From a bacterium (GTDB lineage: Bacteria > 4484-113 > JAGGVC01), in assembly GCA_021158185.1 (NCBI GenBank), contig JAGGVC010000006.1:1-35740 (forward strand): a stretch of 35,740 bases of DNA. Direction: 5' to 3'. The notes under the pieces were generated by a model. That model ran no database searches. It saw only the letters and a list, made by a program, of their open reading frames with translations, and was not told the origin of the DNA. Shown here piece by piece: positions 7,416-30,851 of the stretch (position 1 is the first letter of the stretch; each line of letters begins with the position of its first letter). Position numbers and translations under genes: made by a program.

Positions 7416-7424
7416 TGATAAAAT
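7416..7424 (+). promoter_or_regulatory. Extended -10 element before the thioredoxin gene
   Basis: TGATAAAAT (TGn plus TAAAAT) ends 12 bases before ATG 7437, so the mRNA leader would be about six bases and the gene has no Shine-Dalgarno. It belongs to the set of start-proximal -10 elements in this window. Confidence 0.5.
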
Positions 7425-7436
7425 CAGCGCGATTGT

Positions 7437-7763
7437 ATGAGCATAAATTCACTTAACCTGAATACGTTCGAGAAAGAGATCAGTTCTGCAAAGCAGCCTG
7501 TTATCTGTTTTTTCTGGACTGCTTACTGTAGCGCCTGCAACCAAATGAGTGTTGCGATAAGCAATCTCGAGCGGCGACTTGGAGACAGCGCGAAGTTCTG
7601 CACGATAAACCTTGAAGAGTATCCAAAGATTAGCGATCATGCTGGTGTTATCGTTGTACCTACCGTCATTATCTATAAGAACGGACGTGCCGTAACACGG
7701 ATATTCGGACTAACAGGCGAAGAAGAGCTCGGTTACACCATAGAAGAAATGATTGTTGCCTGA
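7437..7763 (+). CDS. Thioredoxin-family protein (CSAC active site)
   Basis: A 108-residue single-domain thioredoxin fold with no signal peptide, so it should be cytoplasmic. The redox motif is WTAYCSAC (Cys31 and Cys34) in place of the usual WCGPC, and the cis-Pro segment IVVPTVIIYKNG follows at the right distance, ending with GEEELGYTIEEMI. It would reduce or exchange disulfides; the changed residues between the cysteines should shift its redox potential compared with classical TrxA, so I do not call it trxA. There is no Shine-Dalgarno before ATG 7437, but a start-proximal extended -10 is present. It stands alone, downstream of the candidate small RNA. Confidence 0.88.
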   Translation: MSINSLNLNTFEKEISSAKQPVICFFWTAYCSACNQMSVAISNLERRLGDSAKFCTINLEEYPKISDHAGVIVVPTVIIYKNGRAVTRIFGLTGEEELGYTIEEMIVA

Positions 7764-7930
7764 AACAGCAACAAAGTCGCAACAGCTCTGAAATCTCCGA
7801 ATCCACACTGTTAATTGATTGAAACCATCTCCAATCAAATGAATATGCTGGCGGCAAATTGTCCAATTTCGACTGAGATTAGTGCTTGAGAAACCTGTAC
7901 AAAAAAAATAATTTCAGCGTGCATACGATA

Positions 7931-7959
7931 TTGACGAAAGAAATTAAGAATCTTATAAT
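7931..7959 (+). promoter_or_regulatory. Near-consensus sigma-70-type promoter, almost leaderless
   Basis: TTGACG, a 17-base spacer and TATAAT. The start codon at 7968 is only eight bases after the -10, so the predicted start of transcription is at or one to two bases before the ATG. It is the best canonical promoter in the window and the strongest single case for leaderless mRNA. Confidence 0.8.
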
Positions 7960-7967
7960 TCCGGCCT

Positions 7968-8717
7968 ATGCCATGGTGTCCTAAATGCAGAACCGAGTTC
8001 AGAGAAGGCTTCTTGACATGTTGCGACTGCGGAAGCGATCTCGTTGATTCGCTTGATGATGATTTCGATGACTGCAATGCAGTGGCGAAACGTGAGCTCT
8101 CTATCGGAGAAGCCGAGGAAGCCTTCAGTAACGGGATGGCAGCATACGAAGAAGACGAATTCGATGAGGCGATCACATACTTCACTGAGGTTGTTCGCGC
8201 AGACCCAGAGCATCTCGATGCATTCAATATGCTTGGACTCACATTTGCTGCACTTGAACTGCCCAGAGAGGCCTGGCGGAGCTTCAAGCATGCAATAAGA
8301 CTTAAAGAAAATGACAGCAACACACATTTCTACATAGCTGATTTCCTGTGCGATCAAGGGGACTATGAGCTCGCGAAGGAATTTGCAGAACGGTATTTCA
8401 AATTGGAGCATGACGAAGAAGAAGGCGCTGAAATGAGCAAGATCCTTGAGGAAATCAACGGACACATCAGCGCGGGAGATCGCGGGAGCTTTGTTGGAGA
8501 CCTGAGTTTTGACCTTGAAACCCTTGCATCAACGTGCCCTGAGTGCAAGGTTCGGCTACCGCTCGATGCGCCATATTGCCCTGTATGCGGTGCGGCTCAT
8601 ATTTACCTTGACGACTTGTCCGATTATGAATACGACGATGAATCCGAAGACGACTGGGAAGAAGATTACGCCGAAATAGACGTGGCTGAAAACGGTAAAG
8701 CGATGGATGATGAATGA
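7968..8717 (+). CDS. Zinc-ribbon/TPR/zinc-ribbon protein with acidic tail
   Basis: A 249-residue cytoplasmic protein with an unusual modular order. Residues 1-25 form a zinc ribbon (CPKC at 4-7, CCDCG at 18-22). Residues about 48-160 contain three TPR-like helical pairs (FSNGMAAYEEDEFDEAITYF, HLDAFNMLGLTFAALELPREAWRSF, NTHFYIADFLCDQGDYELAKEF). A second zinc ribbon follows at about 190-208 (CPECKVRLPLDAPYCPVCG), and the last 40 residues are strongly acidic (DDLSDYEYDDESEDDWEEDY). TPRs normally hold protein partners, and the ribbons probably bind structural zinc. No enzyme domain is seen. The gene has its own promoter, no Shine-Dalgarno, and no obvious operon partner. Function unknown. Confidence 0.85.
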   Translation: MPWCPKCRTEFREGFLTCCDCGSDLVDSLDDDFDDCNAVAKRELSIGEAEEAFSNGMAAYEEDEFDEAITYFTEVVRADPEHLDAFNMLGLTFAALELPREAWRSFKHAIRLKENDSNTHFYIADFLCDQGDYELAKEFAERYFKLEHDEEEGAEMSKILEEINGHISAGDRGSFVGDLSFDLETLASTCPECKVRLPLDAPYCPVCGAAHIYLDDLSDYEYDDESEDDWEEDYAEIDVAENGKAMDDE

Positions 8718-8887
8718 GCAGAGAATGCTGCAGGCAGGTTCGATGCTGATCGTACGGCTCCCCGTTCAAAGAAAAGACGGTTTTATCTTGCACACACCGC
8801 GACTCTTGTGCGCAGTTCTAGATATGCGGCGTTTGGGCGGGCAATAATCCACCGAAAATAAAGCCTGCATACTTCCGCTGGATTCAT

Positions 8888-8895
8888 GTTACACT
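8888..8895 (+). promoter_or_regulatory. Extended -10 element abutting the octahaem cytochrome gene
   Basis: TGTTACACT (TG at 8888-8889 region, hexamer TACACT at 8890-8895) ends six bases before the GTG start at 8902. Transcription would therefore start at or beside the first base of the start codon. An in-frame TGA just upstream (8896-8898) rules out an earlier start. Confidence 0.6.
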
Positions 8896-8901
8896 TGAAC
8901 C

Positions 8902-9786
8902 GTGTGTAAATATTCGCTAAGAACATCCATTGCGGTCGTCCTTGTGATCGCAATTTCGATTTCCAGCTCATTAGCCGAGAAAGATCAGATTCCCGATCGT
9001 TCCAGCCTCAATGAGCCTGATGCGGTTGATGCGACTGGCGAACCGTATACGCACGAAGCCGATTCGGATTGCCTTGAATGTCACAGCGAACTTTTGTCGA
9101 ATATGCCGTCGGTTAGACAATTACGTGACCAAGACTGCGAATCATGCCACTCGCGATCGTTTATCCGCGCAAATCTAACAGATTGGACGCACGCAATCAG
9201 CGATGCAATGCTTGCTGGAACAGAGTGTGGAAACTGTCATTCAGTTGCCGACGGCGGCAAAATTGAACTCGTTGATACCGGCAACGATCTATGCGCAGAT
9301 TGCCACTCTGACAGCTTGGATGAATTTATGCTGTTGAGCAATCATCCGCTGTACGAGGGGCTCGTTGAATGCCGCGACTGCCACCCAGTTCATCGTGAAT
9401 GGCGTGTAGCTCTTACATGTACCGATGTTGAATTCTATATGCCAGGTGTTCTTCAGTGGCACGATCCGCTCAGTCAGAATGAATCGTGTCTCGCATGTCA
9501 TCAGTACCTGATGCTGACGGATCTTTACCAAAGTGAATTCGTAATTGCAAACACGATGAATCTGCATAAGGTGCATTGTGAACAAGGCTTTGCGGCCTGC
9601 GTGGAATGCCACCGCCCGCATGGTTCATATTCTCCAAGCCTCATCCGCAGCAAGCTTGAAGATAGCGAATATCTCACTTTTATTGGGGGTGACGGATGGG
9701 GTACGTGCTCAACAACCTGCCATTCCGAGCCTCACATTCAGAGGCGATACGGATCCGATCCCGAAGCTCTTTCTTACTTGCCTTAG
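8902..9786 (+). CDS. Exported octahaem c-type cytochrome (doubled-CXXCH type)
   Basis: A 294-residue exported protein. The hydrophobic stretch SIAVVLVIAISISSSLA at residues 9-25 is a signal peptide, with likely cleavage after SLA. Seven CXXCH haem sites follow (CLECH, CESCH, CGNCH, CADCH, CRDCH, CLACH, CVECH), plus one CX3CH site near the C-terminus (CSTTCH), so up to eight haems. The spacing in pairs and the late CX3CH fit the doubled-CXXCH group of periplasmic or cell-surface electron carriers. GTG 8902 is the only possible start since a stop codon lies just upstream in frame. With the tetrahaem protein at 20.7-22.2 kb it points to extracytoplasmic electron transfer. Electron donor and acceptor cannot be told. 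Confidence 0.92.
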   Translation: MCKYSLRTSIAVVLVIAISISSSLAEKDQIPDRSSLNEPDAVDATGEPYTHEADSDCLECHSELLSNMPSVRQLRDQDCESCHSRSFIRANLTDWTHAISDAMLAGTECGNCHSVADGGKIELVDTGNDLCADCHSDSLDEFMLLSNHPLYEGLVECRDCHPVHREWRVALTCTDVEFYMPGVLQWHDPLSQNESCLACHQYLMLTDLYQSEFVIANTMNLHKVHCEQGFAACVECHRPHGSYSPSLIRSKLEDSEYLTFIGGDGWGTCSTTCHSEPHIQRRYGSDPEALSYLP

Positions 9787-9833
9787 CACGTCCGAAAAAC
9801 GCGCGATGCTCCGAATCAGCATTTTCCTGACGT

Positions 9834-10817
9834 TCAGGGCTTGAGCAAAATTTTACCGAATCCAATTCCATCCTTGATTGCGCGCCATGCCGCTGGCGCT
9901 TCATCGAGAGAAAATCTAGAGCCGATTATCGGTTTCAGCGAGCCCTTAGTGATATGGACGAGCAAATCATCCTCAGCCCTTTTCAGGAGAGCTGGTGATT
10001 CTCTGAGAGTCATCATTGTGAAACCCAGGATGCCTGTAGCGTTCGCTATGAGCGAAGCAAAATCGACGACTGGCGGTTTGCGGCTGACCGCGCCGTAAAC
10101 AACAACGCGGCCAAGCGGTTTAAGTGCCTTCATAAGAGACATCGTTGTATCTCCTCCCACAGCGTCAAAGGCGTGGTCCGCACCACCGAGTTGCCTGATC
10201 GTATCGACGAGGTCTGATTTCTCAGAATTGATAACATGGTCAGCCCCGAGCAACTTCAACCGCTCGATCTTCTCGTCGCTCCTCGTTGTTGCGATAACGG
10301 TGGCGCCGAACGATTTGGCAAGTTGCACCGCAATGTGTCCCACGCCGCCGGATGCAGCAGTAATCACAACTGTCTCACCGGGCTTGACATCGAGAAGATG
10401 AATCAAGCCGCCCCAGGCGGTAAGTCCGGCAAGCCAGAAACCCCCGGCATCCTCATCCGAGAACTGATCGGGAGTCTTATGCAGATCATCAGGATAACAG
10501 GTCACGAATTCAGCAAATGAGCCTTGAACACGCCCGAATCCGACGCTCCCCTGGCGAAACGTAACGCGATCGCCGGGCTTGTAATCGGTGATGGACGAGC
10601 CGACAACATCGATGACTCCCGCGCCTTCAAATCCTGGCTGATAGGGCAGGGGGGGCTTTCTGAAATAATATCCGGCAGTAATCAAAACATCGACCGGATT
10701 CAATCCTGCCGCCTTAACTCGAACAAGAACTTCGCCGTCAGCAGGCTCAGGCTTTGGAATATCAACAACTCTTAAGATATTCTCGTTTCCAAGTTCGTCA
10801 AAGCGAATCGCCTTCAT
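9834..10817 (-). CDS. Zinc-free NADPH:quinone oxidoreductase-like MDR protein
   Basis: A 327-residue medium-chain dehydrogenase/reductase. It begins MKAIRFDELGNENILRV, the standard Qor-type N-terminus, has the VRVKAAGLNPVDV segment, and lacks the Cys-rich structural zinc loop of alcohol dehydrogenases. The nucleotide-binding Rossmann motif is AASGGVGHIAVQLAKSFGATVI. Members reduce quinones, enones or other carbonyls with NADPH; the substrate is unknown. GAGG lies seven bases before the ATG. Its upstream neighbour in the same direction is the Rrf2-type regulator, about 200 bases away, which may control it, although this is inference. It converges on the octahaem cytochrome gene with a 47-base gap and no terminator. 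Confidence 0.9.
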   Translation of the reverse strand: MKAIRFDELGNENILRVVDIPKPEPADGEVLVRVKAAGLNPVDVLITAGYYFRKPPLPYQPGFEGAGVIDVVGSSITDYKPGDRVTFRQGSVGFGRVQGSFAEFVTCYPDDLHKTPDQFSDEDAGGFWLAGLTAWGGLIHLLDVKPGETVVITAASGGVGHIAVQLAKSFGATVIATTRSDEKIERLKLLGADHVINSEKSDLVDTIRQLGGADHAFDAVGGDTTMSLMKALKPLGRVVVYGAVSRKPPVVDFASLIANATGILGFTMMTLRESPALLKRAEDDLLVHITKGSLKPIIGSRFSLDEAPAAWRAIKDGIGFGKILLKP

Positions 10818-11015
10818 CTTTGTACCTCATAAGAACACGGGATCGGTAAGCAATTTTACACGAAGAAAAACGATAAGGCGAACGATGAACCCACGAATGA
10901 ATATGCAATAGCGAAAGGAAGTGCTGCAAAATACATCGTTACACGGTAACCACAAACGATAAAGAGTGTACTAGATCTGATGCGAATGTTGATCGTCGCT
11001 GCAACAACGCTGGTT

Positions 11016-11411
11016 CTATGACGTCAGCTTGTCGAGCGTTACTTCGCCTAAGGATGTACGAATATCTTTATCCAAGCGTTTCCAGATCGGGTGTGCAGTG
11101 CATGTGGCCATTAGAACGCATTTTGGAGGTTTTTCCATACATGGAACAAGTTCAATCGGGCCGTGAATGGTCTCAACGATTTCAAGAAGCGATACGGTTT
11201 CGGGATCGCATGAAAGCTGATAGCCTCCCTTGAAGCCGCGATAGCTCCTTACGTAGCCCCGCTGTTTTAATGTTCGAATTACCTGTTCCAGGAATCGATA
11301 GGGAATATTTAGTTTTTCGGAAAGCTCTCTCGCAGAGATCGTTTTGTCTCTGTTCTTGGCCAGAGTTATCAGAACCCTAACCGCGTAGTCAGCTCTTCTT
11401 GAAATCTTAAT
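11016..11411 (-). CDS. Rrf2/IscR-family transcriptional regulator with an ATT start (missed by ORF track)
   Basis: I translated this by hand on the minus strand. It gives 131 residues beginning (M)KISRRADYAVRVLITLA, the canonical Rrf2 N-terminus, then a winged helix (SARELSEKLNIPYRFLEQVI, RSYRGFKGGYQLS) and a wing segment. Three cysteines at 91, 98 and 104 (VPCMEK, PPKCVL, MATCTA) match the Fe-S ligand region of IscR/NsrR, with spacing CX6CX5C against CX5CX5C in IscR. The first residue codon is ATT and is directly preceded by an in-frame TAA, so no ATG, GTG or TTG start can give the conserved N-terminus. AGGAG lies 11 bases upstream. Either ATT is the real start, or a one-base indel broke a GTG start just upstream. 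A consensus promoter lies at 11473-11500. Confidence 0.88.
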   Translation of the reverse strand: MKISRRADYAVRVLITLAKNRDKTISARELSEKLNIPYRFLEQVIRTLKQRGYVRSYRGFKGGYQLSCDPETVSLLEIVETIHGPIELVPCMEKPPKCVLMATCTAHPIWKRLDKDIRTSLGEVTLDKLTS

Positions 11412-11472
11412 TTAGAATCACGCTCCTGAAAGTGGTAAATGAACGAAAAACACGAAGCACAAGTGATTTCAA

Positions 11473-11500
11473 ATTTTATCTAAACGATACAAAATGTCAA
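11473..11500 (-). promoter_or_regulatory. Promoter of the Rrf2-type gene, with internal palindrome
   Basis: On the minus strand: TTGACA, a 16-base spacer, then TAAAAT. The spacer contains TATC-GTTTA-GATA, a small inverted repeat that could be the regulator's own operator. It faces away from the CsgG-like gene, so the region is a divergent promoter. Confidence 0.65.
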
Positions 11501-11559
11501 TAAATTGCGTGTCCATAATCAGGATGCTTAGATATCCTGCAGAAAACTGGCTTGTGCGT

Positions 11560-11565
11560 TATAAT
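11560..11565 (+). promoter_or_regulatory. -10 element before the CsgG-like/TPR gene
   Basis: TATAAT ends nine bases before ATG 11575. The predicted mRNA would have a leader of about three bases, and no Shine-Dalgarno is present. No convincing -35 is seen. Confidence 0.5.
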
Positions 11566-11574
11566 AAAATTGTT

Positions 11575-13560
11575 ATGAAAGGTAATTCACAAATTCTGGG
11601 TTTTGTCGTCCTCGTTGTTGTTTTTCACGTTTTTCTTGCCGGCATCTGTCGGGCTAGTGAACCAGTCAGGCTTGGGGTTCTTGAATTCGAGAACATCACA
11701 GGTGATTCAGAGTTTAACTGGGTAAGCCGCGGCATACAGGAATCACTGTCGTCCAAGCTGGCAGCGCTTCCGAATGTAATCGTTATTGAGCGTGGCCAGA
11801 TAAACAAAATACTTGAAGAGCAGCGGCTTCAGATGTCAGGATTCGTAGATACGGACACTGCCGTCGAGGTTGGCAAGGTCATAGGCATAAAAAAGGCCGT
11901 GACAGGAAGCTATCAGGTATCATCTTCGTCAATCCTGATTAACGCACGAATCATCGATGTCGAGACAGCTGAAACAAATGAAGGATTCGAGGTGCAGGGC
12001 GGTGTTGACGACATTTTTTCTCATTACTCTAGGCTTGCCACCGATTTGTCCGGTTCATTCGGCGACGAGGCAGGCGCACAAGGCAGCGAGACGCATACTA
12101 TTGCTCAGCCTGCGCAGCAGGAAATTGCCCGACAGGATACGACCAGTTTCAGCGCGTACGAGTATTACATCAAAGCAAACGAAGTAGCATTCGGCTCGGA
12201 TTCATGGATCACTGCGATGATCGATATGATCGATAAGGGCAAGGAGATAGATGAATCGGAAGAGATCAACAGGGAGGCTGTAGAGCTTTTTGAGAAAGCT
12301 GTTGACATCGATCCGAACTACGCCCGCGCCTGGGCTCTTCTCGCGCTAGGCTACTCCTCTCTGCAAGATTATACGTCTTCTGAGAACGCAATGCGAACAG
12401 CATTGTCGCTGGCATCGGACGATCCCTTCATCCTATGCACAGAGGGACTGTTCCGCTCTTTCGTATCCGAACGAACCGGCGGCTCTACGAAGGCGTTGGC
12501 AGCGTTTAAGCAGGTTCGTCGCGATTTCCCGGGCACATATTATGCCGGGCTCAGCAGTCTTTTCATTGTGCTAATCGAATTGACCGAAGATGAAGAATGG
12601 ATGCTTGCACATACAGGTGAAGGGCTTTCTCTTCTTACAGATGCTCGCGCGAATATGCCCGAAGCTGGATTTGTCCGCGCATTTCACGGAATGTTCGCTA
12701 TAGTCAAGCTGTTTACAGAGCTTGAATCAACGTTCACCGATGAAAATATCGAGCTTGCCGTAGTATCCGATGCAAAATCCCGGTTAGATACGGCAGTGAA
12801 TGACATCGATAAGTACGTTCAAGCGTATCCAGGAAGCATGATCGCGCCTGATATTGGCACGTTCCTTCCTGACGCAAAGGCCCTTCAATCAATGTTCAGC
12901 GCGCTTGAGGTTGTTCTTACGATTCAGGAAAGAGCAGGAGGCGACCCAAGCGGGATTTCATCGATTCCTGAAAACGAACGAATGAAATACAAAGATCGGC
13001 TTGCAAGAGATTCGCGCGCTATGCAGGAATACGTGAACGCCTATCCGTATGGAATGCTCGTTGATACGATCAATGCAGATGTTCTTCCTGCTGTAGATGT
13101 GTTTATTCAAAGCCTTGAAGGTGGAGGCAGCTATCCACAGGGAGGCGGAATGCAGGGCAGCGGCCAGGAGTTTTACAACCAGCCCAGCCTGAGCCTTGAT
13201 GACGGCATCATTGCCGCGTCTGACCTGATTATCAACGATGATCCCTGGTCGGCTATGGATATTCTTGTCGAACTCGACGAGGCATATCCTGATGTTTACG
13301 ACGTTTACTACCTTATGGTGCTTGCGATGATTGGTGTCGAAGACTACGAATCCTCCGCTGAGTTGTTGTTTACGATCACGGATTTGTGGCCAAATGAGCC
13401 TGATCCTTACTACTGGCTTGGCGCGATATACGACTACTCAGACGATCCGGTAACAGCCTATGACTATTACCTCGCTTATTTGTCTTTAGCCCCGGACGGT
13501 CAGTTTGCTGAAGATGCGTACAATCGCGCTCTTGAAATCGAGTCGTATTACAGTTACTGA
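11575..13560 (+). CDS. Exported CsgG-like domain protein with C-terminal TPRs
   Basis: The track starts at 11494, but ATG 11575 (residue 28 of the ORF) begins a clean signal peptide: MKGNSQILG, then a hydrophobic run ending AGICRAS. This gives 661 residues. The first 150 mature residues match the CsgG/FlgO-like fold: RLGVLEFENITGDSEFNWVSRGI, KLAALPNVIVIERGQINKILEEQ, and GKVIGIKKAVTGSYQVSSSS with ILINARIIDVETAET. CsgG itself forms the curli secretion channel, but its domain is widely reused in envelope proteins. TPR-like repeats follow at about 230-300, and three or more near the C-terminus (AYPDVYDVYYLMVLAMIGVEDYESS and similar), with a glycine-rich linker between. No curli genes are near. 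Function unknown, probably an envelope scaffold. Confidence 0.8.
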   Translation: MKGNSQILGFVVLVVVFHVFLAGICRASEPVRLGVLEFENITGDSEFNWVSRGIQESLSSKLAALPNVIVIERGQINKILEEQRLQMSGFVDTDTAVEVGKVIGIKKAVTGSYQVSSSSILINARIIDVETAETNEGFEVQGGVDDIFSHYSRLATDLSGSFGDEAGAQGSETHTIAQPAQQEIARQDTTSFSAYEYYIKANEVAFGSDSWITAMIDMIDKGKEIDESEEINREAVELFEKAVDIDPNYARAWALLALGYSSLQDYTSSENAMRTALSLASDDPFILCTEGLFRSFVSERTGGSTKALAAFKQVRRDFPGTYYAGLSSLFIVLIELTEDEEWMLAHTGEGLSLLTDARANMPEAGFVRAFHGMFAIVKLFTELESTFTDENIELAVVSDAKSRLDTAVNDIDKYVQAYPGSMIAPDIGTFLPDAKALQSMFSALEVVLTIQERAGGDPSGISSIPENERMKYKDRLARDSRAMQEYVNAYPYGMLVDTINADVLPAVDVFIQSLEGGGSYPQGGGMQGSGQEFYNQPSLSLDDGIIAASDLIINDDPWSAMDILVELDEAYPDVYDVYYLMVLAMIGVEDYESSAELLFTITDLWPNEPDPYYWLGAIYDYSDDPVTAYDYYLAYLSLAPDGQFAEDAYNRALEIESYYSY

Positions 13561-13563
13561 TTG

Positions 13564-14109
13564 CTAGCTGCCGTTTTTCACGAGTGCGGCTCCGCGCCCC
13601 AGTGCTTCAACGTTAAGCGGAATAAGCTTGTGCCTGTGTTCCGGCAGGAGTTTCTTCAATGCCATTTCGAGTGATTCCGTCTTAACAAGGTTCATTGCTT
13701 CATTAAGTCCGCCGAGAGCCACCATTCCAGCAAAGACCAGATTTCCAAGCTCCTTTGCAACCCCTGCGGTGTCGAGATAGAAGCTCTTGATATCATCGCG
13801 CTTCGATACATCCGATATAAGGGAACTGTTGACTATAAGCGTACCACCGGGCTTAATTTTCGGCTCAAACTTGTGGAAGCTTGGAAGATTCATTACCATC
13901 ACGGCGCCCGGTGTATCGGTCGTCGGGCTACCGATGACATCATCACTGATTATCACATTGCAGTTGGCTGTGCCGCCGCGCATCTCAGGACCATAAGATG
14001 GAATCCAGGCGACGTTTTTGTCCTCAATCATACCCGCATACGCAAGCGTCATTCCAAGCGTCATGATGCCCTGACCGCCGAATCCTGCGAAAATCATTTC
14101 GACAAGCAT
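13564..14109 (-). CDS. 2-oxoacid:ferredoxin oxidoreductase, gamma subunit
   Basis: The gamma subunit of a KGOR/VOR-type enzyme that oxidatively decarboxylates a 2-oxoacid to acyl-CoA and reduces ferredoxin. The N-terminal EMIFAGFGGQGIMTLG is the family signature, followed by WIPSYGPEMRGGTANCNVIIS. The track starts at 14133; ATG 14109 (MLVEMIFAGFGGQG) is better because GGAGG lies five bases upstream, giving 181 residues. It is the last gene of the minus-strand operon delta-alpha-beta-gamma. A 110-base gap with two competing hairpins separates it from the beta gene. It converges on the CsgG-like gene with only three bases between the stop codons. Confidence 0.93.
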   Translation of the reverse strand: MLVEMIFAGFGGQGIMTLGMTLAYAGMIEDKNVAWIPSYGPEMRGGTANCNVIISDDVIGSPTTDTPGAVMVMNLPSFHKFEPKIKPGGTLIVNSSLISDVSKRDDIKSFYLDTAGVAKELGNLVFAGMVALGGLNEAMNLVKTESLEMALKKLLPEHRHKLIPLNVEALGRGAALVKNGS

Positions 14110-14174
14110 ACTTTCCTCCAATTCTAAATCCAAACAGCGATCACGCTGATCGATGTGAATTTACTTCATCTTTT

Positions 14175-16495: not shown

Positions 16496-17149
16496 GCACT
16501 TGTGAAAAAAGATACGCACATCACAAGTGCATATTTTATTCGAATTTTCGTTCATGTTAATGCTCTGAAATACTTGAGACCGCTGTTCCAAAGATTCTAT
16601 TTCGCGCATAAACATATGAAGAGACAAGCCATTCGGGGCAGGGCACTAATCTGCTATCGTAGTTGATATCACAGCTGCGTATACTGCGCTTGTTGAAAGC
16701 CAATGACGCGCACCAAGAACTCATTTTGTCCGCCCAAAATGGCTTGAAGAATCAATGCGTCAAAAAGAAGGGCGAAATGACATCCAATCAAATTGAGATG
16801 CAAGCTAAATGCAAGATCAACGCCAAACCGGTCTTCTCAACGGAAAAGCTGAATTCATATTCGCACGAAAAGGGCAGAGTTATACGCACCACCATAATTC
16901 TCAGAGATATTTTTACACCTTCGTCGTTGCGCATAAGGTATATTATGTTACATTACCGAATCGACAAGGGACTTTTTATGAATCGCTATTGGAAGATAGA
17001 ATTCTTGCCTATATGATCTTCTCTGGATTCTGCTATTAAGTACTAATGATGCTTGAAATTGCGCGCGCTGGTATGTATGTCTTTGTTAGTTGTCGTCGCT
17101 GGGCTCAGATGCACTGGCATTACTCTGAATTGTATGAGAAAATCCCTTG
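16496..17149. other. AT-rich 650-base stretch without a convincing gene
   Basis: Several overlapping ORFs of 60-117 codons exist on the plus strand, but none has a recognised domain, a Shine-Dalgarno sequence or a strong promoter. Composition is more AT-rich than the flanking operons. The best candidate is listed separately at 16809-17039. It may be decayed coding sequence. Confidence 0.5.
16809..17039 (+). CDS. Doubtful small ORF, 76 residues
   Basis: Not a recognised family. The stretch FYTFVVAHKVYYVTLPNRQG has the beta-strand-like pattern of real protein, and the residues after it (FYESLLEDRILAYMIFSGF) look helical, but there is no Shine-Dalgarno, and a second ORF (16663-17016) runs through the same bases in another frame. 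It could be the remnant of a longer gene or chance. Listed so that the region is not read as empty. Confidence 0.2.
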   Translation: MQDQRQTGLLNGKAEFIFARKGQSYTHHHNSQRYFYTFVVAHKVYYVTLPNRQGTFYESLLEDRILAYMIFSGFCY

Positions 17150-18049
17150 ATGGTTGTATCTGGCTCATTCAATCCTAATTGCGACGAACCCAATGAATTA
17201 TCAGCGTCTATTTCTGATGAATATTTAACGAGGCTCATAGATGCTGCTAGTATCGCGGTGGGGATTGATGTTTCGATCTATCGAACCGATCATCTGCTAA
17301 GGCGGTTTGAAAAGGCAAAGAAGAGGCTCAAATCGAAGACTTGGTCCGAGCTTATTGATGCGATCAAAAATGATGAATCGGGTCGAAAGCTCATCACTGA
17401 CATGTTACCGGTTGGAACAGGCGGATTCTTTCGAGATCTGAAGCAGTACGAAATATTTGAAAGCCTGTTGACCGCCCTGCCCTGCAGGAAGGAAAGCCAA
17501 GAAGGGATCAGAATCCTCAGTGCAGGATGCGGAACGGGAGAAGAAGCATACTCAATCGCAATGCTTGCAGATCGGCTATTCACGCCATTAAGGCTAAACT
17601 GGGAGGTTATCGGGATTGACATCAATGAAGACAGAATAAGCCAGGCAGATGATGGGTGTTACAAGGCCGATGCGATTAAGGAGATTCCTGGTGAATTTCA
17701 GAATGGCATTATTGTAAGCACAGCAAGAAGTAATATTGCAATAAGAGATGATATTCGTGCGAACTGTACTTTCATTAAGGGCAATATTTTTCTGGATGAT
17801 ATGGTTGATAATTATAATGGTGCCTTAGACGTTATTACTCTAAGATACATTTCAGTATACTTAAAAGCCAAGGTTGCGAGGAAGATCTTTTGCGGACTAG
17901 CGAAACTTCTCAAGCCGGGAGGGATAATCTGGCTTGGAGAGGGCGAATACATCGAGAATTGCACACAAATTGGCTTGAGGATGATTGAGCCCGCGTTCTA
18001 TGAGCGTGACGCTAACGCGGGTGACTCGATTATATTTCTTCAAAAGTAG
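17150..18049 (+). CDS. CheR-like SAM-dependent methyltransferase, orphan
   Basis: A 299-residue protein with the two-domain layout of chemotaxis methyltransferases. Residues about 25-95 are the helical N-terminal domain (RRFEKAKKRLKSKTWSELIDAI), followed by VGTGGFFRD (family T.FFR). The SAM-binding motif SAGCGTGEEAYSIAM is intact, and GIDINEDRISQADDGCY matches the family D-I-d...A..G.Y. The usual CRNVLIYF motif is changed to LRYISVYL, so the Asn near the active site is replaced. CheR methylates glutamates of chemoreceptors, but no receptor, CheB, CheA or flagellar gene is nearby, so the target is unknown. Start: TTG 17147 and ATG 17150 are adjacent; I chose ATG. The gene is more AT-rich than its neighbours, which may point to transfer. 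Confidence 0.85.
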   Translation: MVVSGSFNPNCDEPNELSASISDEYLTRLIDAASIAVGIDVSIYRTDHLLRRFEKAKKRLKSKTWSELIDAIKNDESGRKLITDMLPVGTGGFFRDLKQYEIFESLLTALPCRKESQEGIRILSAGCGTGEEAYSIAMLADRLFTPLRLNWEVIGIDINEDRISQADDGCYKADAIKEIPGEFQNGIIVSTARSNIAIRDDIRANCTFIKGNIFLDDMVDNYNGALDVITLRYISVYLKAKVARKIFCGLAKLLKPGGIIWLGEGEYIENCTQIGLRMIEPAFYERDANAGDSIIFLQK

Positions 18050-18778: not shown

Positions 18779-18787
18779 TGGTATTCT
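18779..18787 (+). promoter_or_regulatory. Extended -10 element before ispG
   Basis: TGGTATTCT ends eight bases before ATG 18796. The mRNA would begin within one or two bases of that ATG. No Shine-Dalgarno precedes either candidate start. Confidence 0.5.
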
Positions 18788-24149: not shown

Positions 24150-24160
24150 TCACTCGCCTA

Positions 24161-25225
24161 CTAACGTTTCCTTCGCCGCCGCCTCGACTTGCGAACCGAC
24201 TCCGAAGCTTCACCGTCACCCTCAATGATACCACCATTTGGGGCAGATTCTGTTTGCTCGGACGAAATGGATTTCGTATCAGAAGATGGCTGTGCTGTTT
24301 TCGGTTCGTTTGTCGTCAGATCCTTGAACACTTGCTCAAGATTCCTGCTTTTTATTGCCGCAATTGCGCTGTTCATTATCAGGTGGTACTCGAAAATCGA
24401 ATACAGATTCTGTGTGATGAAATAGAGCATAGCGCCAGAGGGAATAATCATCCCGAATATGACGACGACGAACATCATAATGTTGGGATTAAAGGGCTGT
24501 TTCTGTGGCTCTGCGTTGTTTCCAAAGTCGTATTTCGGAAGCCTTTTCTGAACAGTCTTCATCTGATGCTGGTAAAACAGGCTGGTTGCGATATAAGCTA
24601 CAACAATCGCAAGGGCTGGCACGTAAAGAAATACGTTGGTTTTCCCAAGCATAAAGCTGACAACGCCCTGCTCCCCCAAGTCAATGACCTTATCCATGCC
24701 GGGATACCTTCCCATCGAGAGAGCGGGAAGGGCGGCATACATCAGATGAATCCCGAGGAACTTGGCCTTGCCGAATACATCAGGATTATACAGTGCCCTA
24801 AAGATTGCGAAAAAGATTGGAAGCTGGATCAAAAGAGGGAGGCATCCGCTTAATGGATTAATTTTGAGCTCCTGATAGAGCTCCATAGTTTTCTTGTTTG
24901 CCGTTTCCTTGTCGCCCTTGAAATGCGCGATCAGTTCCTTTTGCATCGGTGCTAGAACCTGCATCCAAGCCATTCCCGTAAACTGCGCGACGCTCAAACG
25001 GAACATAAGGAGTTTCACGATCAGTGCGGTAAGTATTATCGCAAGCCCCCAGCTTCCCGTGAATGCCTGCAACGTGACGATGACCAGAATTACAAGGTCT
25101 ACGATTGGACCGAGCAGCCCGCCTGTTTGAGGCGGTGCGGAAGGTATGGGCCCCATAATTCCTTCGCCCTGACCTGTAGCCTGGAGCATAAGCCCCAGCT
25201 TAAGAAACCAATTGCTCAAATGCAT
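24161..25225 (-). CDS. yidC: YidC/Oxa1/SpoIIIJ membrane protein insertase
   Basis: A 354-residue insertase for single membrane proteins and partner of SecYEG. It is short and lacks the large periplasmic domain of Gram-negative YidC. Five hydrophobic segments are visible, with the family core AFTGSWGLAIILTALIVKLLMFRLSVAQ, the cytoplasmic hairpin QKELIAHFKGDKETANKKTMELYQELKINPLSGCLPLLIQLPIFFAIFRAL, and PSGAMLYFITQNLYSIFE. The functional Arg of the hydrophilic groove (IVR in E. coli) is Lys here (IVKLL). The C-terminus ends in a strongly basic tail (KSRRRRRKR), which in relatives helps contact the ribosome. It begins 12 bases after yidD. Confidence 0.95.
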   Translation of the reverse strand: MHLSNWFLKLGLMLQATGQGEGIMGPIPSAPPQTGGLLGPIVDLVILVIVTLQAFTGSWGLAIILTALIVKLLMFRLSVAQFTGMAWMQVLAPMQKELIAHFKGDKETANKKTMELYQELKINPLSGCLPLLIQLPIFFAIFRALYNPDVFGKAKFLGIHLMYAALPALSMGRYPGMDKVIDLGEQGVVSFMLGKTNVFLYVPALAIVVAYIATSLFYQHQMKTVQKRLPKYDFGNNAEPQKQPFNPNIMMFVVVIFGMIIPSGAMLYFITQNLYSIFEYHLIMNSAIAAIKSRNLEQVFKDLTTNEPKTAQPSSDTKSISSEQTESAPNGGIIEGDGEASESVRKSRRRRRKR

Positions 25226-25237
25226 TCTGTATTCCTT

Positions 25238-25450
25238 CTACGGAACGGGATCATAGCCTCCGGGATGGAACGGATTGCATTTCATTACCCTTTTTATGGC
25301 AAGCCATAAGCCCTTAATCGCTCCGTGCTTCTCAATTGCCTCAAGTGCGTATGTGCTGCAACTAGGTTTGAATCTGCATGTCGGCGGAGTAAGCGGCGAA
25401 ATCCTTGCTCTGTAAAACCTGATGAGTGCAATCAACAATCGTTTCATCAT
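25238..25450 (-). CDS. yidD: Membrane protein insertion efficiency factor YidD
   Basis: A 70-residue protein with the complete family pattern: [57 protein letters not shown]. YidD is an amphipathic membrane-associated factor that helps YidC-dependent insertion. It lies between rnpA (three bases) and yidC (12 bases), the usual order, and must be cotranscribed. Confidence 0.96.
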
Positions 25451-25453
25451 CGG

Positions 25454-25789
25454 CTAATCTGAAAGACCAAGGCGCTTGAGCATCATTCGTGTTTGCCATT
25501 GCAGTTCCCGAAATGGAATACGATCAATCTCCTTATCCACGTAGACAACGATGTCGAATACGCATTGAAGCTGGGGAATAATCCCTGCCATAATATGCCT
25601 GAAACGCCTGCGGATTCGATTTCTCACGACCGCCTTGCCGGCCTTTTTGGTAACTACAAGCCCGAGCCGGGAAAGAGACCCTTCCCGCTTGAGATAGTTG
25701 ATACGGAAATACTTTCCACGTATCGATTTACCTTGTCTGAAGACATAAGCAAAACTAGCGCTGCCTTTAAGAGAAATGCAACGATTCAT
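25454..25789 (-). CDS. rnpA: Ribonuclease P protein component
   Basis: A 111-residue basic protein that binds the RNase P RNA and helps remove tRNA 5' leaders. The RNR signature is seen as KKAGKAVVRNRIRRRFRH, and the N-terminal pattern ASFAYVFRQGKSIRGKYF and final RELQWQTRMMLKRL fit the family. Its ATG overlaps the rpmH TGA by one base (TGATG), so the two are translationally coupled. No RNase P RNA gene is in the window. Confidence 0.96.
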   Translation of the reverse strand: MNRCISLKGSASFAYVFRQGKSIRGKYFRINYLKREGSLSRLGLVVTKKAGKAVVRNRIRRRFRHIMAGIIPQLQCVFDIVVYVDKEIDRIPFRELQWQTRMMLKRLGLSD

Positions 25790-25923
25790 CAGACAGCGAG
25801 CTTAGCACGTCCACGGCTGCGCCGGTTCTTGATCACTCGGCGGCCCTGTGGCGTACTCATACGTTGCAGAAAGCCGTGCCTTCTCAGTCTGCGTCTTTTC
25901 TTGGGTTGGTACGTTCGCTTCAT
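25789..25923 (-). CDS. rpmH: 50S ribosomal protein L34
   Basis: A 44-residue protein: [20 protein letters not shown], then [18 protein letters not shown], the textbook L34 sequence. The track ORF begins 17 codons too early; ATG 25923 has AGAAAGGAC directly upstream. It is the first gene of rpmH-rnpA-yidD-yidC-jag. In most bacteria dnaA and the origin lie just upstream, but here a divergent unknown secreted protein gene takes that place. Confidence 0.97.
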
Positions 25924-25964
25924 GTCCTTTCTCGAAACACAATCCAGCTGAAAAACGAAAAAGC

Positions 25965-25993
25965 AGAATAACATACATCCGTTTTCTTAGCAA
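25965..25993 (-). promoter_or_regulatory. Promoter of the rpmH-rnpA-yidD-yidC-jag operon
   Basis: On the minus strand: TTGCTA, 17-base spacer, TATTCT preceded by TG (TGTTATTCT). The start site should lie near 25958, giving a leader of about 35 bases that carries the rpmH Shine-Dalgarno. Confidence 0.65.
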
Positions 25994-26044
25994 ACGATTC
26001 ATCAGCATTTGCGTTTTTAGGAATTGCAGCGTTCGTTTCCAAGA

Positions 26045-26053
26045 TGATACAAT
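26045..26053 (+). promoter_or_regulatory. Extended -10 abutting the secreted unknown gene
   Basis: TGATACAAT ends seven bases before ATG 26061, so transcription should start at the A of the ATG or one base before it. It fixes the true start far downstream of the track start at 25848. Confidence 0.65.
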
Positions 26054-26060
26054 AACCTGT

Positions 26061-27158
26061 ATGGCTAGGATTGGACTTCTTTCTTTCGCAGTGTGTTTTG
26101 GCTTGCTGGTGTTGTTTGTATCAGCACAGGAACCGGTAAGCGCCCAAGCGCAGAACAGCTTCGACGCATCTATTCTCGAAGCAAGCGCGATCAGCGTTGA
26201 CATTCCTCTTCCAGTTGATACTCCCGTTTTAACCTGGCTTCTTCGACACAAGATGAAGTTCGACGAAGATTTTCTCGTCAAACGCTTTTTGAAGGGTGAT
26301 ACAACATCCAGAACCATTTACTCAGCGATATATGGCGAAGGTACGGGCTATATTTTATCCAAGGGCGGTGAAGTTGAAGCGCACCTTAAGGTGTTCGATT
26401 TCGGCTTTGAATATCAGAAAGCGGCGAAGAACATCAATAAGGGCGTGGCAAAATTCATCCCTGATCCTGAGAGCGGTAAAGTCGAGAAAGGATCCACAAT
26501 GTTCGACCAAGGCTATACCTATTTCGAGTACAAATCCGGCCTTAAGGGGACTTGGAAGTATGTATTTCCTCCTGACGAAGGCAAAGTTGCGGCTATGAAA
26601 ATCCTCAAGGATGTTGTTGGTGAAATTCCCGACCAGGGAAGCGATTTCACATTCGAGTATGAAGCCGTAATCGACAAATCAGAAGAAGGCCTGTTTCACC
26701 TGAATGTGAATAAGTATTTCCGTGGCGTACAGCTTCTGGATGATTACATACAAATATCCCTCGATGCGGACATGCAATTGGTAGGCTTTTCCTATTTCTG
26801 GGATAATCGGACTGTGCCCGGCCCGTCTCCCCCTGGGGATCGCCGTATCGTTGACTCAAGCTTCGCAGTGAACCAGGCTAAGAAGTGGGTGATCCAGAAT
26901 TCCAACGGGGCTGCTCCGTATCTGACTTTGGTGCAGATTCGACTTGGCTACATTACATTGCGCGGGGATTATATAACCATCGTTCCCGCATGGATTATGT
27001 CTTGCGCATGGCAGCATAAGGTTGGTGCGGATCTGGATGTAGAGGCTCCCGGGCTGCGCAAGAACAGGCCAACCATGAAGAGGTTCGTGGAATGGCTTGA
27101 AAAATACGACGTTTATATCGCCATCGAAGGCATCACGGGACGGCCAATGGAGCTTTAG
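26061..27158 (+). CDS. Secreted protein of unknown function
   Basis: Not a family I can name. The track ORF starts at 25848, inside the divergent rpmH region, but ATG 26061 begins a standard signal peptide (MARIGLLSFAVCFGLLVLFVSA, cleavage near AQA) and sits one leaderless distance after an extended -10. This gives 365 residues. The mature protein is mixed alpha/beta, with TWLLRHKMKFDEDFLVKRFL near the start and two similar stretches of beta-hairpin pattern with bulky residues. The C-terminal part (SSFAVNQAKKWVIQN, then LGYITLRGDYITIVPAWIM) has the look of PepSY/YycI-like domains, where a helix is followed by strands ending in PAW; this is a weak impression. Probably extracytoplasmic. Confidence 0.75.
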   Translation: MARIGLLSFAVCFGLLVLFVSAQEPVSAQAQNSFDASILEASAISVDIPLPVDTPVLTWLLRHKMKFDEDFLVKRFLKGDTTSRTIYSAIYGEGTGYILSKGGEVEAHLKVFDFGFEYQKAAKNINKGVAKFIPDPESGKVEKGSTMFDQGYTYFEYKSGLKGTWKYVFPPDEGKVAAMKILKDVVGEIPDQGSDFTFEYEAVIDKSEEGLFHLNVNKYFRGVQLLDDYIQISLDADMQLVGFSYFWDNRTVPGPSPPGDRRIVDSSFAVNQAKKWVIQNSNGAAPYLTLVQIRLGYITLRGDYITIVPAWIMSCAWQHKVGADLDVEAPGLRKNRPTMKRFVEWLEKYDVYIAIEGITGRPMEL

Positions 27159-27287
27159 GCTGTTGCGCGTGAAATCGATAGCGAGAGATTTCTTTAAGCT
27201 GCTCTCTGCATTAAAGACAGTATATCTGTATTGCTTTGATGCTGACAATTGTTACCGGATTCTGCTGTTAAACGACCGGGTTAGGCT

Positions 27288-28418
27288 ATGGAATACCTTA
27301 ATCTGTTTGATATACCTTCCAAGTCGGTACTGAACTGCGCGAGAGATCAAGCGGAGATGTATGGTCACCCGGACATTGAGCCGGAGCACGTTCTTCTCGC
27401 GCTTGTTCTTTCCGAGCAGACGAACGCACACCGTCTTCTCTCACAGGCCTGCGGAAATCTCTCCGCACTTGAAGTTCGGCTTAAAGGGATGCTGACTCAA
27501 AGGAGCTTCGGCGAAGAAGTCGGCCAACGACCAGGTTTCTCAAGGCGCACAATGCTACTTCTTACGCAGGCGTTTCAGGAGATGACCAGAACAAAGGACG
27601 GTCATGTAGGTACCGAACATCTTCTCCTGGCCATGGGCTTTGAGAGGTTCGGCCCGCTCGCGAGGCTGCTTGAGGAATTTGAGATAACACGGGACATTTT
27701 TCTGATGTGGATGTCGGGCGATGAAAGCGAGGATGATTCCGGCGAAGATAGTGAAGAAATCGTAGTTGTAGACGAAGAACCGTCGTTTGATGAAGAAGAT
27801 GAACTGCTGTTTAGCGATGGTCTGTTCAGCTATCCATTTCTGATTTTCGTAAGAATGCTATGTGATTACAGCATCGCAACATCGATTCAAAATCAGATTG
27901 CCATCCATCTTCTGCTTAAACCCAGTCTACTGACGCCCGAAGATATAGTTTTTTCGGTTATTCGGGCAGAAATAGCGAGGAAAGGTTCTCTCATCGACAA
28001 GCTTGGCTCAATCGGCCTTGATGTTGAATGGACATACCTCAGGCTGAAGCAGGCGGTTCAGCAAAACGAACTCAGGGCACATGGCGAGGTTTTGGGAACG
28101 TTCAGCGAAGACGAATCGGGAATGGGAAATGATACAGTCACTCATGATTACCAAGAAAGCGTGGCAGAGGTACAGGATAAATCCCAGGAGGCCGATTCAG
28201 TTTCAGGGACGCTCCTTGATATCAGATGGCCTGTCGTCGAATTCATGCTTGAAGCAGCGCATATTGCTTCAGGAGCCGGTTTTGCCAGCGTGCTTCCTCA
28301 ACATATTGTTTCGGTCTTTCTTCAATCGAGCCTTAATTCCGCTGCAAGGATACGCAGGCAATTCAAATTAAGAAAGAGAGATATCGAAAAACTGGCTGCT
28401 GTGAGTTTAGACGACTGA
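27288..28418 (+). CDS. Clp-N repeat protein without ATPase domain
   Basis: A 376-residue cytoplasmic protein. Residues 1-145 form a full Clp-N domain (two repeats) as in ClpC/ClpA: ALNCARDQAEMYGHPDIEPEHVLLALV type at 16-45, and LLLTQAFQEMTRTKDGHVGTEHLLLAM at 85-112. A very acidic linker follows (DESEDDSGEDSEEIVVVDEE). Two more diverged copies come next, at about 185-265 (LLTPEDIVFSVIRAEIARKGSLIDKL) and 320-375 (FMLEAAHIASGAGFASVLPQHIVSVF). No Walker A/B ATPase motif is present. Clp-N domains bind substrates and adaptors such as MecA or McsB, so this could be a stand-alone adaptor or anti-adaptor for a Clp protease. Function is inference; the domain calls are firm for the first pair. Confidence 0.85.
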   Translation: MEYLNLFDIPSKSVLNCARDQAEMYGHPDIEPEHVLLALVLSEQTNAHRLLSQACGNLSALEVRLKGMLTQRSFGEEVGQRPGFSRRTMLLLTQAFQEMTRTKDGHVGTEHLLLAMGFERFGPLARLLEEFEITRDIFLMWMSGDESEDDSGEDSEEIVVVDEEPSFDEEDELLFSDGLFSYPFLIFVRMLCDYSIATSIQNQIAIHLLLKPSLLTPEDIVFSVIRAEIARKGSLIDKLGSIGLDVEWTYLRLKQAVQQNELRAHGEVLGTFSEDESGMGNDTVTHDYQESVAEVQDKSQEADSVSGTLLDIRWPVVEFMLEAAHIASGAGFASVLPQHIVSVFLQSSLNSAARIRRQFKLRKRDIEKLAAVSLDD

Positions 28419-28529
28419 TCGAGAGCATCGCCCGCCGATGCAGACTCCAGGGACTGCAGAATCTGCGCTGCATTTACGGATAACTTGCAGTTACCGCGCA
28501 ATCCGGCTTTTGACGCGGTATCATTATTT

Positions 28530-29627
28530 GTGCCCAGCAAACGAGTAATTGTGGCTATGAGCGGGGGCGTGGACAGCACGGTTGCAGCGTTCCTCCTCAG
28601 CAAGGAAGGATTCGAAGTCATCGGAATTACGGCAAAGTTCCTTCCTGACGCGTACGCGAGTGAATCGAAGCAGTGCTGCAATGCGGACAGTGCATATGCG
28701 GCCGAGCGGGCGTGCGATTTGATCGGCGCTCAGCACATCACTTTGAATCTGACGGATGCATTTCGGGAAAGCGTCGTCGCAAGGTTCGTCGAAGGATACA
28801 AGCGCGGTGCAACGCCCAATCCATGCATCGACTGCAACAGGTTTATCAAGTTTGAACTTTTCTTCAAGTACGCAGAGGAACTCAACGCGGAATTTCTGGC
28901 TACCGGGCATTATGCGCGAATCGAACGCGATGAGAGCGGGCTAATGCGCCTAAAGAAGGGCGTGGATTCCGACAAGGATCAATCATACTTCCTTGCTTCG
29001 ATCCCGTATGAATCTCTGGAAAAGATAAAATTCCCGCTCGGTACGCTTAAGAAGAAGGATGTACGTAGAATTGCGGCGGAAATCGGGTTCAGAAACGCCG
29101 AGCGGCAGGAAAGCCAGGATATCTGCTTCGTGTCGAAAGATACAGATTTTGCCCGATTGATCGAAATCTACGAGTTGAACGTTGCACATCCCCTTCCAGG
29201 CCCGATAATTGATGAATCCGGACGCGTTCGCGGAGAGCATCGCGGTATAGAGTATTTTACGCTCGGACAAAGGCGCGGCTTTCGAGTCGGAATGGAAGAA
29301 AAGAAATTCGTTTATGCAATCGATGCCGATTCAAACAGCATTCTCGTCGGCCCGCGGTGTCATTTCCCAGTTCATCATGCCGAGCTTGCTGACTGCAACT
29401 GGCTCGCACGGGACCTGCTGCTCCAATCGGATGAGTTCAAATGGCGGCTCAGGTATCGCTCTGAGCCAATTGCGGCAGCATTGAAAATGCAGGAAAACGG
29501 TGCAGCCGCGAGTGAAGCCGTTTTGACTTTTGCCGAACCGATGTATTTCGTAACTCCGGGGCAATGGGCGGTGGCGTATCTTGGAGATACAGTTGTCGGA
29601 TGCGGCGAAATAATACGCGCGTATTGA
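28530..29627 (+). CDS. mnmA: tRNA-specific 2-thiouridylase MnmA
   Basis: MnmA adds sulfur to U34 of tRNA Lys, Glu and Gln using persulfide from a cysteine desulfurase. The ATP PP-loop is MSGGVDSTVAAFLL, the catalytic cysteines lie in NPCIDCNRFIKF and ESQDICFV, and GHYARI, SDKDQSYFLA and the YTLGQRRG-like YFTLGQRRGF motif are present. The track begins at 28485; GTG 28530 (MPSKRVIVAMSGGVDS) gives 365 residues, the normal length, and is preferred. A TATCAT hexamer ends five bases before that GTG. The active-site loop has an extra Cys (NPC) compared with the more usual NPD. The desulfurase at 2441 could be the donor. Confidence 0.94.
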   Translation: MPSKRVIVAMSGGVDSTVAAFLLSKEGFEVIGITAKFLPDAYASESKQCCNADSAYAAERACDLIGAQHITLNLTDAFRESVVARFVEGYKRGATPNPCIDCNRFIKFELFFKYAEELNAEFLATGHYARIERDESGLMRLKKGVDSDKDQSYFLASIPYESLEKIKFPLGTLKKKDVRRIAAEIGFRNAERQESQDICFVSKDTDFARLIEIYELNVAHPLPGPIIDESGRVRGEHRGIEYFTLGQRRGFRVGMEEKKFVYAIDADSNSILVGPRCHFPVHHAELADCNWLARDLLLQSDEFKWRLRYRSEPIAAALKMQENGAAASEAVLTFAEPMYFVTPGQWAVAYLGDTVVGCGEIIRAY

Positions 29628-29696
29628 TTTACTTGACCGACATCAGGATTCATTCACGCTTTCGAAGTGATAAGGATCATTTACCCAGTCAGGCTC

Positions 29697-29705
29697 TGGT
29701 ACAAT
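29697..29705 (+). promoter_or_regulatory. Extended -10 abutting murG
   Basis: TGGTACAAT ends six bases before GTG 29712, so the predicted first transcribed base is at or next to the start codon. No Shine-Dalgarno is present. Confidence 0.6.
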
Positions 29706-29711
29706 TCCGGC

Positions 29712-30851
29712 GTGCGAATTGCTGTTACAGGTGGAGGAACGGGCGGGCACGTTTATCCTGCTATTGCCGTTCTTGAAGCTATGAACACGCTTCTATGCGA
29801 ATCCAGCGGGGATGCGCTTGTAACTCTGTGGATTGGAACTGACAGAAAGGAAGCTGAAATTCTGCCCAAGTACGATATCCCGCTTGCAGAAATAGATATT
29901 TCGCCGCTTAGAAGGTCTATTAGGCTGACCGCGCTTAAACAGAATATCAAGCTGGCTGCCAATTTGCTTGCCGGACGAGCTTGCAAGCAGGCCGCAATGC
30001 ACCTGACGAAGTTTCAACCGGACTGCCTTATCGGTACCGGCGGATATGTCGCATATCCTGCATGTCGTGTGGCATCAAAGCTCGGTATCCCCCTTTATCT
30101 CATCGAGCCGAATGCGATCCCCGGTCTTGTGACAAGGCGCGTGGCAAAATATGCCGAAGCCGTATTCTGTGCGACCGATGGATCTGCGATGGCTCTAGGC
30201 GGCGAGAATACAAAGGCAATTGGAGTGCCGGTACGATCATATTCGGGCAGTTACAGCAAGGAAGAGCTTTATCTGAAATACGAGCTTGAGCCGCATAGAA
30301 AAACGATCTTCGTAACCGGAGGAAGCCTTGGCGCCGGGTTTATAAACAAAATTGTCTTCAATCAGATTGTCGAAATGCTCAACGCAGATTGCGATCTTGC
30401 GAAATCAGTGCAAATAATTCACCAGACCGGAAGCCGTGATTACGAAACAGCCTTGAATCTCAGAAAGGAGCTTCAATTCCCTTATCGGCCATTTAAATAC
30501 CTTCACGATTCAACGGAAGCCTTGTTTCTGGCAGACTTGTTCATCGGGCGTGCAGGTGCTTCTTCAGTTGCAGAAGCGGCACATTTTGGCCTTCCCTCGA
30601 TTTTCCTGCCATATTCGCACCATTCCGATATGCAGCAGTTCAGAAACGCATATCCGCTTGCGGAAGCCGGTGCGGCTTTCATCCATATAGAAGATGAATT
30701 CGACCGGAATGCCTTTGGCGAAAATCTGCTCGAATTGATCCGAGCGTGTCGCAACGCCGAGCTTATTGCGAGGATCAAGGAGTTCGACAAGAACGCTGCG
30801 GAAGTAATCGCTTCGCAAATAATATCCGGGCTTTCGGGAGACAGTCGTTGA
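29712..30851 (+). CDS. murG: UDP-GlcNAc:lipid I N-acetylglucosaminyltransferase
   Basis: MurG makes lipid II from lipid I on the inner face of the membrane. GTG 29712 gives MRIAVTGGGTGGHVYPAIAV, the standard N-terminal glycine loop; the track start at 29667 is too early. Other signatures: CLIGTGGYVAYPA, PLYLIEPNAIPG (family HEQN is IEPN here), FVTGGSLGAGFIN, HQTG, and RAGASSVAEAAHFGLPSIFLPYSHHSDMQQFRNA. The His-Glu-Gln to Ile-Glu-Pro change is mild and seen as variation in the family. 379 residues. It sits outside a dcw cluster, between mnmA and the cell-wall amidase, and its TGA overlaps the TTG start of the amidase gene. Confidence 0.93.
   Translation: MRIAVTGGGTGGHVYPAIAVLEAMNTLLCESSGDALVTLWIGTDRKEAEILPKYDIPLAEIDISPLRRSIRLTALKQNIKLAANLLAGRACKQAAMHLTKFQPDCLIGTGGYVAYPACRVASKLGIPLYLIEPNAIPGLVTRRVAKYAEAVFCATDGSAMALGGENTKAIGVPVRSYSGSYSKEELYLKYELEPHRKTIFVTGGSLGAGFINKIVFNQIVEMLNADCDLAKSVQIIHQTGSRDYETALNLRKELQFPYRPFKYLHDSTEALFLADLFIGRAGASSVAEAAHFGLPSIFLPYSHHSDMQQFRNAYPLAEAGAAFIHIEDEFDRNAFGENLLELIRACRNAELIARIKEFDKNAAEVIASQIISGLSGDSR

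Follow-up and report, generated by a model that had tools for sequence, protein, structure and literature searches.

Do the −10 elements that directly precede many start codons in this DNA indicate that the corresponding mRNAs begin at, or nearly at, the start codon itself? The question is raised by the window, the whole stretch of 35,740 nucleotides that was analysed, in which a sequence-only reading had noticed seven genes that lack a Shine-Dalgarno (SD) sequence and have a −10 hexamer at a short distance upstream, mostly in the extended form TGnTAnnnT. Genes that lack a leader and have a −10 hexamer directly in front are an established kind (PMC3160421, PMC12340547). Judged from the sequence, it is highly probable that in about one called gene in seven of this bacterium the promoter abuts the coding region, with the 5' end of the mRNA predicted at the start codon or no more than about 3 bases from it.

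The −10 elements of the window

All seven motifs are present at the distances claimed, as read directly in the window sequence, and five of them carry the TG. Here, the gap is the number of bases separating the hexamer from the start codon, and posteriors are those of the motif model described below; all features lie on the forward strand. Upstream of murG (29,712 to 30,851), the extended −10 TGGTACAAT (29,697 to 29,705) is followed at gap 6 by the GTG at 29,712, so that the start codon lies directly on the predicted transcription start site (TSS); the protein begins MRIAVTGGGTGGHVYPA, the usual N-terminus of MurG. The same spacing is seen for gene 8902, with TGTTACACT at 8,887 to 8,895 and a gap of 6 to a GTG whose G is the predicted TSS. 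This gene (8,902 to 9,786) encodes a multihaem cytochrome c-like protein that matches cytochrome c families; its N-terminus resembles a signal peptide, its composition is atypical and the codon-usage gene finder missed it. At slightly larger gaps are TGATACAAT of gene 26061 (26,045 to 26,053; gap 7, posterior 1.00) and TGGTATTCT of ispG/gcpE (18,779 to 18,787; start 18,796, gap 8, posterior 0.71), the orthologues of which in the related genomes G002 and G003 have TATAAT at gap 9 from an in-frame ATG. The two motifs without TG are both TATAAT. One, at 7,954 to 7,959, precedes gene 7968 for a TPR/zinc ribbon protein (gap 8, posterior 0.95) and has, as had been claimed, the −35 element TTGACG 17 bases upstream (7,931 to 7,936); the other, at 11,560 to 11,565, precedes gene 11575 for a CsgG/TPR protein at gap 9 (posterior 0.87), giving a predicted leader of 3 nt. 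The weakest of the seven is trx, encoding thioredoxin (start 7,437), where TGATAAAAT (7,416 to 7,424; posterior 0.97) lies at gap 12 and the leader is predicted to be about 6 nt, making the gene nearly leaderless. A tentative eighth case is TGAGAAAAT (17,135 to 17,143; posterior 0.89), at gap 6 from the ATG of cheR at 17,150; it is a weak one, the first base of its hexamer being G.

The absence of SD sequences from these genes is borne out by SD posteriors of at most 0.16 for the six of the seven that are in the gene set, gene 8902 being outside it. Rfam and tRNA scans of the window gave no matches. It should be noted that seven TAnnnT cases in a single window could be largely due to chance, since by our own estimate about 15% of genes are expected to have such a motif within nine positions.

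A probable promoter class that abuts the coding region

The position of the −10 elements was therefore analysed at the scale of the genome, a fragmented draft assembly that is 91% complete and has 52% G+C. The test covered 1.54 of the 2.33 Mb, in 121 stretches, and genes were called by a simple script based on ORFs and codon usage rather than by a trained gene finder. In a positional profile that used longest-ORF starts, and hence was blind to upstream motifs, 34 of 1170 genes had the hexamer of TG.TA...T at exactly −12, versus about 3.5 expected per position, and 41 had TA.AAT at −12, versus about 4 expected. Relative to the start codon, the hexamer spacing peaks at −12 to −7. In 150 kb of Escherichia coli K-12, the negative control, none of TG.TA...T, TATAAT and TA.AAT was present at these offsets, nor was there any enrichment of plain TAnnnT, whereas pTT27 of Thermus thermophilus, a known leaderless user that served as positive control, showed a TAnnnT peak also at −12, without TG.

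An expectation-maximisation (EM) model with two motifs and a hidden choice of start was fitted to 1175 genes. From random starting points it recovered the SD but missed the −10, its second motif reflecting coding composition; for this reason, TGnTATAAT was supplied as the seed of the −10 model, which was then checked against shuffled sequences. The SD and the start-proximal −10 then separate as distinct classes, comprising 744 (~63%) and 167 (14%) of the 1175 genes, respectively, and the learned consensus of the latter is T.61 G.83 n T.92 A.97 T.58 A.87 A.87 T.97. With the same motifs, dinucleotide-shuffled upstream DNA placed 0, 5 and 0 genes in the class, versus 167 for the real sequence. 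This is the shuffle check that the sequence-only reading had named, run on two thirds of the genome, and the shuffles fall far below the real counts. The view that the hexamer is an effect of chance or of the composition of A/T-rich upstream DNA could draw on the window, where several of the seven motifs might have arisen by chance; the shuffles, the single-base peak at −12 and the TG placed one base upstream of the hexamer rule it out for the class, leaving it a negligible probability. The class is also present in G008, of the same family (28 of 127 genes), in G003, of another family and with 59% G+C (28 of 123), and in Thermus (28 of 136), and no gene of E. coli was assigned to it (0 of 139); G004 and G009 were outside the profiling.

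The members of the class have several features of sigma-70-type promoters. TG was found in 98 of the 167 matches. A −35-like hexamer at a spacer of 16 to 18 accompanies 22 of the 69 matches without TG (3 of 69 at control spacings) and 10 of the 98 with TG (8 of 98 at control spacings); hence, where TG is present the −35 is largely dispensable, and TG and the −35 element tend to substitute for each other, as they appear to do in the window. Consistent with the use of extended −10 elements, the primary sigma factor (RpoD, locus L001) contains IRKPVHMVE and so retains the H and E that contact the extended −10, which correspond to H455 and E458 of E. coli RpoD, in sigma region 3.0. The neighbouring gene is on the opposite strand for 87 of the 167 matches, and only 2 are less than 25 bases from an upstream gene on the same strand. 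The genes of the class are mainly the first or only genes of transcription units. Measured to the motif start, the offsets cluster at −18 to −15 (leaderless) and at −48 to −37 (leadered promoters). Intermediate offsets, which would give a leader too short for an SD, are few, in keeping with leaders that are either absent or of sufficient length to hold one.

These features bear on the alternative that the genes lack an SD but do have leaders, being translated with the aid of S1 or of unstructured A/U-rich leaders, and that the motif serves translation and is not a promoter. An A/T bias before start codons has been read that way for other phyla (PMC5397173). The promoter grammar of the motif (TG, a −35 at spacer 17 mainly where TG is lacking, intergenic placement) and the promoter-like pyrimidine followed by purine at the predicted TSS make this alternative most improbable here. 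The reading of start-proximal extended −10 elements as signs of genes with no leader, or almost none, is supported by the spacing peak, the lack of an SD and the intergenic position, and is backed further by the scarcity of intermediate −10s, the conservation in the phylum, the residues of the sigma factor and the shuffles. In the mechanism that we propose, the hexamer of sigma-70-type promoters, many of them of the extended −10 class, lies at −12 to −7, and transcription would begin on the start codon itself at gap 6 and 1 to 3 bases ahead of it at gaps 7 to 9. Such mRNAs leave no room for an SD and are presumably translated from the 5' end by the leaderless route. Throughout the phylum, leaderless genes, mostly first in their transcription units, would coexist with a normal SD-led majority. 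In this assembly, the 3' end of the 16S rRNA, which holds the anti-SD region, is missing.

Coupling of the start codon to the gap

Two features had escaped the sequence-only reading: the tendency of TG and the −35 element to substitute for each other, and a dependence of the start codon on the gap between the −10 and the start, with GTG prevailing at gap 6. At this gap there are 50 GTG, 23 ATG and no TTG starts (68% GTG), at gap 7 there are 16 GTG and 22 ATG, and at gaps 8 and 9 together 9 GTG, 35 ATG and 2 TTG, while the SD-led genes start with GTG in 78, ATG in 572 and TTG in 28 cases. The excess of GTG at gap 6 has an odds ratio of 16 relative to SD-led starts (p 7e-25) and of 8.5 relative to gaps 8 and 9 (p 5e-7). 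It is also seen independently of the model: with longest-ORF starts, TA.AAT at −12 precedes GTG 27 times, ATG 13 times and TTG once. Gap 6 in G008 has 15 GTG and no ATG; in Thermus it has 11 ATG and 3 GTG. A 5'-terminal start that is mostly AUG, characteristic of the actinobacterial and Deinococcus types, was looked for and is not what this genome has.

It could be argued that these are ordinary promoters, that translation really starts further downstream, after a leader that includes an SD, and that the RTG on the predicted TSS is merely part of the initiator. An in-frame ATG does occur within 30 codons in 21 of 50 genes with GTG at gap 6, but in only 1 of the 50 is an ATG a short way downstream preceded by an SD-like site. 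In addition, the RTG shares the reading frame of the gene much more often than one time in three: of 58 cases of TA.AAT-N6-GTG, 43 are followed by 100 or more open codons in phase with the GTG, and 1 and 9 by such a stretch in the other frames, whereas for TA.AAT-N6-YTG the numbers across the three frames are 7, 3 and 7 of 52. Finally, when ten proteins with GTG at gap 6 were scanned for profile starts, agreement was obtained for most: the NCBIfam profiles of KdtA, Tmk, DeoB, Obg, RecN, RadA, NadE and Fmt begin at most a few residues from the GTG, and MurG is conserved from its GTG codon. On this evidence from ORF frames, SD sites and family profiles we reject a downstream-start artefact, which we consider very unlikely. 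For fmt (L044:11699-12796, minus strand), which encodes methionyl-tRNA formyltransferase, a leaderless mRNA with GTG as its start codon is likewise predicted.

Taking the gap-6 GTG as the true start, we asked what causes the bias. Judged from base composition, the TSS would be located at hexamer+12, the position that coincides with the first base of the start codon at gap 6. At gap 7, where this position is base −1 and hence within the leader, it is G in 21 of 38 genes, and at gap 9, where it is base −3, in 17 of 24 (gaps 7 and 9, p 2e-8); there was no such preference at gap 8 (4 of 22). The base preceding hexamer+12 is mostly a pyrimidine. Intergenic promoters with leaders also have more G than A at hexamer+12 (42:17); the sharp G initiator at +1 that was sought in them appeared as a tendency only, the depletion of A (15 to 20 of 128 at each position from hexamer+11 to +14) being clearer than the enrichment of G. 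The RNA polymerase may therefore favour G after a pyrimidine at hexamer+12, and where the start codon begins at this very position, GTG rather than ATG would result. Given that G is favoured within the leader at gaps 7 and 9, we regard such an initiating-nucleotide preference as the likely, though only moderately supported, cause of the GTG bias.

The bias might instead be translational, if a 5'-terminal GUG is what the lineage's ribosomes or initiation factors prefer, with the G at +1 simply a consequence. The confinement of the dominance of GTG to genes whose start codon is the predicted 5' end, and the 15 GTG of 15 at gap 6 in G008, speak for this explanation. The preference for G at hexamer+12 within the leader at gaps 7 and 9, and the predominance of G over A at that position in leadered promoters, speak against it, and we consider it rather unlikely. 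We give no more than tentative credence to a combination, in which the phylum would use 5'-terminal GUG as its standard leaderless start by means of both an adapted translation machinery and a polymerase that prefers G. With polymerase preference as the favoured explanation, these genes may be a clean case of a start codon that seems to be set by the nucleotide with which the transcript is initiated, since translation would begin on that same base. Whether leaderless ribosomes can prefer GUG thereby becomes a testable question. On the practical side, gene finders that expect an SD or penalise GTG will misplace such starts.

Distribution in the phylum and comparison with known systems

In 9 of the phylum's 10 genomes murG has kept this upstream arrangement, even where protein identity has fallen to about 30%. 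It is TGGTACAAT-N6-GTG in this genome (G000), TGTTACAAT-N6-GTG in G008 (protein 56% identical), TGCTACACT-N7-GTG in G001 and TGCTAGACT-N8-ATG in both G002 and G003; as read by eye, G005, G006 and G007 have TAAnAT-type hexamers 7 to 9 bases before an in-frame ATG, and G009 has TACAAT-N7-GTG. Only murG of G004 looks leadered, with an SD.

The same holds for the phylum genome-wide, where TGNTANAAT-N6-GTG and TGNTANAAT-N6-ATG are overall more frequent than TGNTANAAT-N6-YTG and the reversed pattern. For G000, G008, G001, G002 and G003, in this order, the counts are 41, 39, 21, 30 and 24 with GTG, 16, 9, 12, 15 and 28 with ATG, and 10, 5, 5, 7 and 10 with YTG, which represents two codons. For G004, G005, G006, G007 and G009 they are 9, 10, 8, 11 and 4 with GTG, 9, 23, 6, 5 and 0 with ATG, and 5, 9, 7, 8 and 1 with YTG. 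Reversed-pattern controls gave 0 to 2 in the ten genomes, and the extended pattern is weaker in the f3 and f4 genomes. Among 108 genomes that do not belong to this phylum, GTG counts reached at most 18, in a genome whose reversed control is 12. Only G044 combines at least 10 GTG matches with an excess of GTG over ATG (15 to 6) and a low reversed control (2); this genome, from another phylum, possibly represents an independent lineage with GTG-preferring leaderless genes. The counts of G105 (GTG 11, ATG 8) are near its control.

How does this set relate to known leaderless systems? As in the TA-led genes of Deinococcus-Thermus (PMC3160421, PMC12340547), the −10 lies a few bases before the ORF, there is no SD, and the class makes up a large share of the genes, mixed with SD-led ones. 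Unlike there, where TAnnnT occurs without TG and gap 6 in Thermus has ATG 11 to GTG 3, the ratio here is GTG 50 to ATG 23. The leaderless genes of Actinobacteria (Mycobacterium, Streptomyces, Corynebacterium) likewise have ATG or GTG and hardly any TTG at the 5' end, and mycobacteria are good at translating from 5'-GUG, with CTG and TTG being rejected (PMC4633059), which makes the mechanism proposed here plausible. However, GTG is favoured here and not in Actinobacteria, where AUG accounts for 79% of leaderless starts in Corynebacterium glutamicum (PMC3890552), 67.8% in Streptomyces lividans (as ATG; PMC8079986) and 76.4% of leaderless mRNAs in Streptomyces coelicolor (PMC4895711). In Mycobacterium tuberculosis, start codon use is alike in leaderless and leadered genes, and TGn precedes only 7% of the TANNNT motifs (PMC3898074). 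A strong TG before the Pribnow box is shared with the Lactococcus-type leaderless signals, which were described, in a survey of 2011, for genomes of low G+C (PMC3160421), unlike the 52% G+C here and 59% in G003. Compared with the sets described in open-access papers, the differences therefore lie in the extended TG at medium G+C and the GTG majority. With these genes, a small phylum would join the lineages that are rich in leaderless genes, here with extended −10 elements and at medium G+C.

Among the matches listed for G003, the 18-mer TGCTACAATCTGCCTATG occurs seven times, at sites that include C2:10737, C5:6328, C12:11243, C15:5569, C17:169828, C30:41018 and C35:7755. These copies probably belong to a repeated or mobile gene family with a leaderless promoter.
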